Shown: piece after piece, positions 37,334-45,318 of the stretch
Numbering within the stretch: position 1 is the stretch's first letter
Layout: every line of letters starts with the position of its first letter
NCBI GenBank assembly: GCA_902810715.1
Contig: CADDYS010000007.1
Location: 1 to 45,400, forward strand
Direction of reading: 5' to 3'
DNA length: 45,400 nucleotides
DNA from: a bacterium
GTDB lineage: Bacteria; Actinomycetota; Aquicultoria; Aquicultorales; Aquicultoraceae
Position numbers and translations under genes: made by a program
The notes under the pieces: model-generated
Told to the model about the DNA's origin: nothing
The model's input: only the letters and a program-made list of their open reading frames with translations
Databases searched by the model: none

Positions 37334-37666
37334 CTACTTATGTTTTCGAGCAGCAAAAGCGAAAAAATAAAAATACTGATTTAAGTCATCAAGCGACGTG
37401 CTATATTCACCGTCGCTAAACACAGTATTGCAGAACACTTCTCTTATTCGCGTTATTTCTTTTAAACGATTCCTCCAGCGCAGATCTTCTATAGTTAAAT
37501 CAAAAAGATCTAGTGCTCTGTTTATTGTGTTTTCAAAAAGCTGTTGGTTCTTTCCTTGAAACTTAAGAGCACGGTTTATTTCACTGCCAATATTGCCCAT
37601 CTGCTCGGCCAACGAAAGAGTTTGCCATCTCCCCTTTGCTGAATTAACGTGAATAAGATTACTCAT
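37334..37666 (-). CDS. Conserved hypothetical protein paired with DUF5674 protein
   Basis: The 110-residue, mainly helical protein begins MSNLIHVNSAKGRWQTLSLAEQMGNIGSEI. I recall this family as a frequent neighbour of DUF5674 proteins. It overlaps the upstream DUF5674 gene by 8 nt, so the two are translated together. The compact overlapping pair looks like a toxin-antitoxin or defence-type module, but no function is established by what I see. Confidence 0.7.
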   Translation of the reverse strand: MSNLIHVNSAKGRWQTLSLAEQMGNIGSEINRALKFQGKNQQLFENTINRALDLFDLTIEDLRWRNRLKEITRIREVFCNTVFSDGEYSTSLDDLNQYFYFFAFAARKHK

Positions 37667-38009
37667 AAATAACCAACTTATTTAATATATTGATGATTCT
37701 TTCTCTTATTTTGGGATTCTCAACTTCTCTTGAGCGATTGTTTTGTGACGGCCTTATATTAATAAAAGAATCAAACTCAACCCATTCTTCTTGTTTCATT
37801 CCCGGCCATAAGTTAATTCCCCATAAATTATTTTGCTTAGAGCCCTGTTCTAAAAGAATAGCTTCTTCATCTGCATGAAGCTCACCGCCGATAGCTATGA
37901 TTTCCCTGTCTATATCAACAACTGCTTTTACTAAGTCACCAAATTGATTCCTGGCAATCTCTACTAGTTCTTTTAAAGCAATGGGCTCTTCTATGATTTT
38001 TATTTCCAA
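37659..38009 (-). CDS. DUF5674 family protein
   Basis: The 116-residue protein has the DUF5674 landmarks: a long helix LKELVEIARNQFGDLVKAVVDI, then IAIGGELHADEEAILLE, LWGINLWP, and FDSFINIRPSQNNRSREVE. The strongly conserved GELHADEE and INIRPSQ..RSR segments look catalytic or ligand binding, but no reaction is known to me. It is the first gene of the pair with 37334-37666. Confidence 0.8.
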   Translation of the reverse strand: MEIKIIEEPIALKELVEIARNQFGDLVKAVVDIDREIIAIGGELHADEEAILLEQGSKQNNLWGINLWPGMKQEEWVEFDSFINIRPSQNNRSREVENPKIRERIINILNKLVIYE

Positions 38010-41545: not shown

Positions 41546-41593
41546 GGGGTGACGACACAGGGCAGACTCTCCTAAGAAAACACTTGTCCTAAA

Positions 41594-41627
41594 GGCACCG
41601 GTACCTGGTTTGAAAGATTTGAAAGAT
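41594..41627. repeat. Dispersed ACCGGTRCC-TTGAAAGAT repeat, copy D1
   Basis: GGCACCGGTACCTGGTTTGAAAGAT followed by a second TTGAAAGAT. Related copies at 41726-41782 and 45254-45318 share the order ACCGGTGCC, TGGCTTGAAAGA and TTGAAAGAT. Confidence 0.65.
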
Positions 41628-41725: not shown

Positions 41726-41782
41726 AAACCGGTGAAACCGGTGCCTGTGAAACCGGTGCCTGGCTTGAAAGATTGAAAGATG
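41726..41782. repeat. Dispersed ACCGGTGCC-TTGAAAGAT repeat, copy D2 (three ACCGGTG units)
   Basis: Three tandem AAACCGGTG units with GCCTGTG/GCCTGG spacers end in CTTGAAAGATTGAAAGATG. It abuts the 3' end of the decayed BrnA-like antitoxin gene, whose frame reads straight into it. Confidence 0.7.
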
Positions 41783-42114: not shown

Positions 42115-42134
42115 ATGTTCAGGAGGGCTTGCCG

Positions 42135-42776
42135 ATGAAAGAAACTCTTGCGATGATGAAATCTTTTTTCTCGGATGTTTGGCGCTACCGCAAAGAGCTT
42201 AAAAAACAAGACGGGTGGATCAAGCAATTTGCAAAAAAGAAGGGGTACTCGGTTAATCCCCATTGGATGATATATACCAACTTAAAAATTTGGCTCATCC
42301 AATCGGAGAAAATGTTTGGCAAAAGATATTGTCCTTGCTTTGAGCCCTCGGGTGACCCTGAGTTGGATAAGAAGTTAATTTGTCCGTGCGCTTTTGTAAA
42401 AGAAGAAACAGAAAATAACGGTACGTGTCACTGTACACTTTTTGGTAGGGCTGGGCTATCAAGTGCCGAATTTAAAAAGGCAGAATCCAGGCTTATGGAG
42501 GAGTATCAGGGAGTGGCTCTTGATATCAAAAATGGTGCGCTTGATACGCGTGGCATGCCCATAAACGGCCCGCGTGGGCTCCAGGTACCGGATGCTCTTC
42601 ATCAGACCAAGAGAGCGCTATCGCTCATGAACGGAAACCTCTCCAGGGTCATTGTCTCGACTCAGGCTGAGGCCGGTCACTTAGTTTTGCTAGGAAAATC
42701 AAAGGGGCTTGACCCAACCATTACCAGTGAGAATGGTTGCTTTGTAGTAGAGTTGGCACCAACCCGCCGGCTTTAA
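42135..42776 (+). CDS. Ferredoxin:thioredoxin reductase catalytic-type domain fused to a Cys-less TusA-like domain
   Basis: The protein has 213 residues from the ATG that follows AGGAGGG. Residues about 25-120 hold the FTR beta pattern of three CxC motifs: RYCPCF (about 70), LICPCAF (about 87) and TCHCTLF (about 102), which bind the 4Fe-4S cluster and active disulfide. Residues about 137-212 resemble TusA/SirA (LDTRGMPINGP, then ALHQTKRALSLM, VIVSTQAEAGHLVLLGKSKG). The sulfur-carrying Cys of the TusA CPxP motif is absent. No FTR alpha subunit is nearby. It is likely a ferredoxin-linked disulfide or persulfide reductase. Confidence 0.85.
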   Translation: MKETLAMMKSFFSDVWRYRKELKKQDGWIKQFAKKKGYSVNPHWMIYTNLKIWLIQSEKMFGKRYCPCFEPSGDPELDKKLICPCAFVKEETENNGTCHCTLFGRAGLSSAEFKKAESRLMEEYQGVALDIKNGALDTRGMPINGPRGLQVPDALHQTKRALSLMNGNLSRVIVSTQAEAGHLVLLGKSKGLDPTITSENGCFVVELAPTRRL

Positions 42777-45253: not shown

Positions 45254-45318
45254 TAACCGGTGCCAGTAACCGGTGCCTGTAACCGGTGCCTGGCTTGAAA
45301 GATTGAAAGATTGCAAGA
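45254..45318. repeat. Dispersed ACCGGTGCC-TTGAAAGAT repeat, copy D3
   Basis: Three tandem TAACCGGTGCC units are followed by TGGCTTGAAAGATTGAAAGATTGCAAGATG. It belongs to the same family as D1 and D2. The surrounding 45038-45340 is AT-rich without a convincing gene. Confidence 0.7.

Follow-up and report, generated by a model that had tools for sequence, protein, structure and literature searches.

Enzymes of the ferredoxin:thioredoxin reductase (FTR) type reduce protein disulfides, and the solved FDR structures 7pwe (a glutaredoxin fusion from Desulfotalea) and 4tpu (Methanosarcina) have the same catalytic fold and six cysteines as the protein described below. YedF (TIGR03527) consists of a TusA half joined to a DsrE half. 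The supply of selenium to SelD is attributed mainly to selenocysteine lyase/NifS-like proteins in the consulted part of PMC7595633. The NADH oxidoreductase fused to SelD is proposed, in the consulted part of PMC2432076, to supply SelD by reducing a selenium compound, and the SelD fusions in the corresponding part of PMC4561486 are all N-terminal. A search of the open-access literature for 'ferredoxin-thioredoxin reductase' or 'ferredoxin thioredoxin reductase' together with TusA found no paper.

The present analysis concerns the window, a stretch of 45,400 nucleotides that constitutes an entire contig (G000:C7) of a draft genome of 2.43 Mb with 98.16% completeness. The open reading frame 42135-42776, 213 codons from the ATG at 42135, was judged to be a real gene, and its product, an FTR catalytic domain followed by a TusA-like domain devoid of the active cysteine, is hereafter referred to as FTR-TusA' (Table 1). 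Best-segment identities to the full-length homologs are 45-57%, and no model in NCBIfam or Pfam covers the whole protein. The gene stands alone, flanked by genes for an RRM protein and an HD-domain protein. An intergenic 34-nt repeat, containing ACCGGTGCCTGG followed by TTGAAAGAT units, occurs in the window at 41593-41626, 41748-41781 and 45278-45311; two copies, 97% alike and about 3.5 kb apart, flank the FTR-TusA' gene, and the third is 71% alike. The window also encodes a DUF5674 protein at 37659-38009 on the minus strand (E 3.3e-38).

Table 1. Features of the FTR-TusA' locus in window coordinates
Feature	Position	Strand	Evidence or remark
FTR-TusA' gene, 213 aa + stop	42135..42776	+	ORF list; full-length homologs L041-L079
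Candidate ribosome-binding site AGGAGGG	42121..42127	+	Sequence; 7 bases before ATG
FTR/FDR catalytic domain, residues 22-107	42198..42455	+	Pfam PF02943; PDB 7pwe, 4tpu
First CPC, C66 + C68	42330..42338	+	Kept in 40/40 sequences
Second CPC, C83 + C85	42381..42389	+	Kept in 40/40 sequences
CHC, C98 + C100	42426..42434	+	Kept in 40/40 sequences
Linking helix, residues 110-125	42462..42509	+	AlphaFold2 model
Cys-less TusA/SirA-like domain, residues 129-213	42519..42773	+	Profile alignment; family Pfam/PDB matches; AlphaFold2 model
GMPINGP, residues 140-146	42552..42572	+	Connects strand 1 to helix 1, within an apparent family-specific insert
V151-P152-D153, equivalent of TusA CPx	42585..42593	+	hhalign; Val/Ile, Pro, Asp in 40/40

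The catalytic domain (residues 22-107) matches Pfam FeThRed_B (PF02943) with an E-value of 7.1e-16 and 58.6 bits, above the cut-off of 22, and all six FTR cysteines are present in each of the 40 aligned sequences (the window protein and 39 homologs). We take C68 and C100 to be the redox pair, with C100 at the cluster, the ligand and redox roles being assigned by analogy with spinach FTR. The closest solved sequences, 7pwe (3.4e-10) and 4tpu (8.3e-09), are reductases with the same motif spacing, and the predicted structure superposes on 7pwe with Z 10.8 (2.7 Å over 101 residues) and on 4tpu with Z 9.9. The window's genome has no FeThRed_B match besides FTR-TusA'. Across the phylum, 55 of the 396 genomes (own included) match the protein at an E-value of 1e-5 or lower; outside its own genome the best identity is 41%, mainly over the FTR part, and many of the FTR proteins inspected carry a rubredoxin-like tail. 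An in-frame TGA occurs in many of these phylum matches (e.g. G049:C5:71482-71739 and G118:C52:161551-161775), a feature to be expected of FTRs that contain Sec in the manner of the FtrB double selenoprotein. A sister architecture, FTR with rhodanese, was seen at L102:424-945 and L114:4257-4790 (Hydrogenimonas, Sulfurovum), the former recognised by Pfam (FeThRed_B 4.2e-34, Rhodanese 1.6e-16) and the latter assigned by alignment only.

The C-terminal segment of the window protein, scanned alone, has no match in Pfam (E up to 1) or NCBIfam and lies below the TusA gathering score. When 38 family members were searched one at a time, however, 20 matched TusA (PF01206) at E-values up to 1, the best being 8.1e-07; every other Pfam family was matched by one member at most. 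The family profile finds the SirA-like structure 3hz7 as its best PDB match (E 0.0048) and also matches the TusA half of a YedF (G449, E 4.3e-7). Profile alignment with hhalign gave a P-value of 4.3e-5 against 18 TusA-type sequences and of 7.7e-6 against the five YedF-like ones among them, whereas the best value from 40 unrelated families used as decoys was 0.045, and the TusA alignment run in reverse gave 0.27. The AlphaFold2 model of the protein (pLDDT 93.2, pTM 0.87) folds residues 135-206 as strand-helix-strand-helix-strand-strand; in VIA-align, residues 133-210 fit best on 3hz7 (Z 6.7, 2.2 Å, 70 of 74 residues), with YeeD next at Z 5.5. Modelled alone, the domain has a pLDDT of 77.5 and its top Foldseek match is again 3hz7, with an E-value of only 0.044. 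Such middling Z values are common, yet 3hz7 spans the full length of the domain and its match is in line with the sequence profile; the TusA fold is accepted.

In the hhalign alignment the TusA motif RGLxCPxP falls on RGLQVPDA of the window protein, so that the cysteine is replaced by Val151 (VPDA being residues 151-154). The family version of the stretch is RGL(P/Q)(I/V)PD(A/M/S/T), with Val in 13 and Ile in 27 of the 40 sequences at the cysteine column, followed in all 40 by Pro and then Asp. The carrier cysteine of CPxP was found in none of the 40 and, because this defining residue was tested and is absent, the protein is not a TusA carrier. No other cysteine column of the TusA-like domain is conserved among the 40 sequences; the most frequent cysteine, at residue 194, occurs in 10, and a C-terminal tail cysteine in six. 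The latter is part of a flexible-looking tail that ends in SCG(N/S/T) in L044, L045, L047, L049, L050 and L054 (six of the 39 relatives), and may be a mobile substitute for the lost cysteine. Seven residues of the domain (D137, T138, R147, P152, D153, H156 and K159) are invariant in all 40 sequences. The loss of the cysteine together with an invariant Pro-Asp-x-x-His-x-x-Lys is consistent with a surface kept for binding but not with decay; the simplest reading would be that the active cysteine had already gone when the family began to spread, and that the new constraint replaced it. For a carrier fold that is unable to carry, docking is the function that suggests itself.

These results partly confirm an earlier note on this DNA, which had described a protein with the three FTR CxC motifs intact and a TusA-like domain without its active cysteine. 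The CPC, CPC and CHC motifs and the PF02943 match support the former, the TusA fold is borne out by the 3hz7 match, the family profile and the predicted structure, and the survey of homologs makes the absence of the CPxP cysteine a family trait. The note had placed the lost site at GMPINGP, whereas the alignment places it at VPDA; of the two segments it had proposed for profile searches, the FTR part was matched directly but the C-terminal part was matched by TusA only in relatives of the window protein.

Single-sequence scans for relatives found none in genome_contigs or viral_contigs, and the family surfaced only in an alignment-based scan, which yielded 242 confirmed relatives; the best 80 of the 242 were kept, of which 39 (L041-L079) were taken to be the full-length family. 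These 39 are mostly from Campylobacterota, with scattered representatives in other phyla, and many of the hosts are named Sulfurimonas or Sulfurovum. A phylogenetic tree was inferred from 38 rows (the window protein and 37 relatives), L048 and L077, which are cut by contig ends, being left out. A Campylobacterota group comprises 31 rows, including one labelled Anaerolineales and one labelled only 'bacterium'; the seven rows outside it are the window protein, L041 (Actinomycetota), L042 (Bacillota), L043 (Chloroflexota) and three fusions with SelD. The window protein is sister to L041 (97/88), both on long branches. FTR-TusA' is rare, being present in eight of the 328 genomes of one Campylobacterales sample, and among the 396 phylum genomes the C-terminal domain was found in the window's own genome only. 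Searches with tblastn gave no match in phages and one in plasmids, confined to the FTR part. The rare and scattered distribution suggests horizontal transfer.

The association with selenium metabolism rests on gene fusions, gene neighbours and co-occurrence. At three of the 39 loci (L053, L057 and L046) the module forms the C-terminal part of a SelD reading frame, the N-terminal part being recognised as SelD (NF002098/TIGR00476) with E-values of 1.9e-133 in L053 and 1.4e-130 in L057; the SelD portion of L046 is partial, at a contig edge (E 2.3e-53). The contigs come from Spirochaetota and Myxococcota and the fusions form one clade (100/99), and thus count as one event. In G408, which carries L053, the fusion is the sole SelD match in the genome. 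The SelD parts of L053 and L057 have a CxC motif within HGSGCGCK, and the linker between SelD and the FTR-TusA' module has a conserved FNAxCxPPxP, the cysteine of which could act as a moving selenium carrier in the fusions. The gene in L042 is preceded by the DsrE half of a YedF (TIGR03527 positions 86-194, E 6.6e-34; Pfam DsrE 1.7e-07). In G396, the genome that carries L041, a lone YedF DsrE half with CGTC is flanked by selD and selA, all three on one strand (L186:44-3381), and G403, which carries L048, has only the DsrE half of YedF. In L041 and L048 the gene is preceded by those for a double-cubane reductase (NF040772) and an activase (TIGR00241); the STRING partners of selenium-linked proteins of Slackia given in the consulted part of PMC5322559 include a 2-hydroxyglutaryl-CoA dehydratase subunit and a CoA-substrate-specific enzyme activase. 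The neighbours in Campylobacterota, which count against a selenium role, are mostly unrelated housekeeping genes that vary by locus; over all loci, no neighbour family is present in more than six of the 40 stretches (window included).

SelD was found in 37 of the 39 homolog genomes (E up to 1e-20), 36 of them over the cut-off, and in 34 of 36 when the fusion genomes are left out; it was not found in the two draft carrier genomes G414 and G431. SelD is, however, widespread in any case: the rate in the window's phylum is 211 of 326, a comparison drawn from that phylum while the carriers are mostly Campylobacterota. In the window's own genome neither SelD, for which the best match is a thiamine-phosphate kinase (ThiL), nor YedF was found, and three TusA proteins score over the cut-off. 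Among its relatives, SelD is present in G002 and absent from G001, both of the same genus, and is present in all of G003-G009 of the same family. The lack of a detectable SelD in the window's own genome, despite its 98.16% completeness, is the main argument against a selenium role. Loss, an assembly gap or a different use could each explain it, so that in this genome the protein may act on sulfur or the selD gene may have been missed.

Full-length YedF was found in two of the 40 genomes examined. The proposition that FTR-TusA' replaces YedF and excludes it was not borne out: YedF is present in one of eight carriers and 84 of 320 non-carriers in the Campylobacterales sample (p 0.69); the eight carriers derive from nine rows, G449 having been dropped as its match is a YedF. 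A second comparison, between 1 genome in 32 and 85 in 328, gave p 0.002, but it combines differently drawn sets and takes no account of kinship, 32 being our own count of the Campylobacterota clade.

Taken together, we favour, with about even confidence, the view that FTR-TusA' is a ferredoxin-driven disulfide or chalcogenide reductase of a selenium-delivery pathway. The [4Fe-4S] centre would take single electrons from ferredoxin, and the C68/C100 pair would attack a partner protein at an S-Se, S-S or perselenide bond. The partner might be a selenium-carrying cysteine, for example in the CGTC of a stand-alone DsrE/YedF half, or the Cys/Sec of SelD. The TusA-like domain would carry no atom but, having preserved the docking surface known from YedF's TusA half, would hold the partner at the reductase; the selenide produced would be consumed by SelD. 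FTR-TusA' would then play, with ferredoxin, the part proposed for the NADH oxidoreductase found by others in fusion with SelD. A more specific version, tentative and somewhat doubtful, is that YedF has been split, with a Cys-less TusA docking arm on an Fe-S reductase and the DsrE half as selenium carrier, the reductase releasing selenide to feed SelD and being fused to it in one clade.

The earlier note had suggested a reductase directed to a sulfur-carrier client. The reductase joined to a conserved Cys-less TusA-like domain stands, but selenium appears the better client in view of the SelD fusion, the neighbouring DsrE half and the presence of SelD in 37 of the 39 genomes. The sulfur version, in which the Cys-less domain docks the reductase on TusA, DsrE or Hdr-type partners whose persulfides or disulfides are reduced with no special tie to selenium, is rather unlikely: the sulfur-related names of many hosts, the thiosulfate-uptake protein YeeD among the TusA-fold PDB matches and an own genome with three TusA proteins and neither SelD nor YedF speak for it, whereas the SelD fusion, the selD-DsrE half-selA cluster and the frequency of SelD in carrier genomes speak against it. 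It may hold for the window's own genome.

Less probable still is that the reductase maintains SelD by keeping its Cys/Sec pair reduced, with the TusA-like domain docking SelD and the selenium atom not being handled. The CxC of the L053 and L057 SelD, fused in cis, would suit an enzyme that reduces protein disulfides, but the neighbouring DsrE/YedF half and the retained chalcogen-carrier fold are left unexplained. Selenium delivery is placed ahead of sulfur-carrier reduction, and the latter ahead of SelD maintenance. That the C-terminal domain is a mere structural or dimerising addition to a disulfide reductase of thioredoxin-like clients seems very improbable; FTR domains with other extra domains, such as rubredoxin-like tails, are common in the phylum, but seven invariant residues exceed the needs of a scaffold, and the fusion to SelD also argues against it.

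If the selenium-delivery reading is true, it would give a purpose to a TusA domain without its cysteine, and a conserved ferredoxin-linked reductase in cis with SelD would tie the reductive step to a definite protein that can be tested. Compared with known systems, FTR-TusA' matches the CPC-X14-CPC-X12-CxC spacing of 7pwe; 7pwe and 4tpu carry other domains, whereas FTR-TusA' adds the Cys-less TusA and in one clade has SelD in front. Its best NCBIfam match is the FtrB double selenoprotein NF041072 (E 1.2e-14; 54.1 bits, below the cut-off of 160), which has two Sec codons where FTR-TusA' has Cys in a frame without TGA. The window protein has no NCBIfam match to YedF TIGR03527, the TusA half of which is matched by the C-terminal family profile; unlike YedF, FTR-TusA' lacks the CPxP cysteine and the DsrE half and has an FTR domain, in the order FTR-TusA'. 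The NADH oxidoreductase-SelD and NifS-SelD fusions (in the consulted parts of PMC4561486 and PMC2432076) likewise join SelD to an enzyme expected to prepare selenium, whereas the partner in the present fusions is of the ferredoxin and not the NADH type and lies on the C-terminal side. Judged from sequence, what is new here is the fusion of an FDR with a Cys-less TusA domain and, in one clade, its position C-terminal to SelD.
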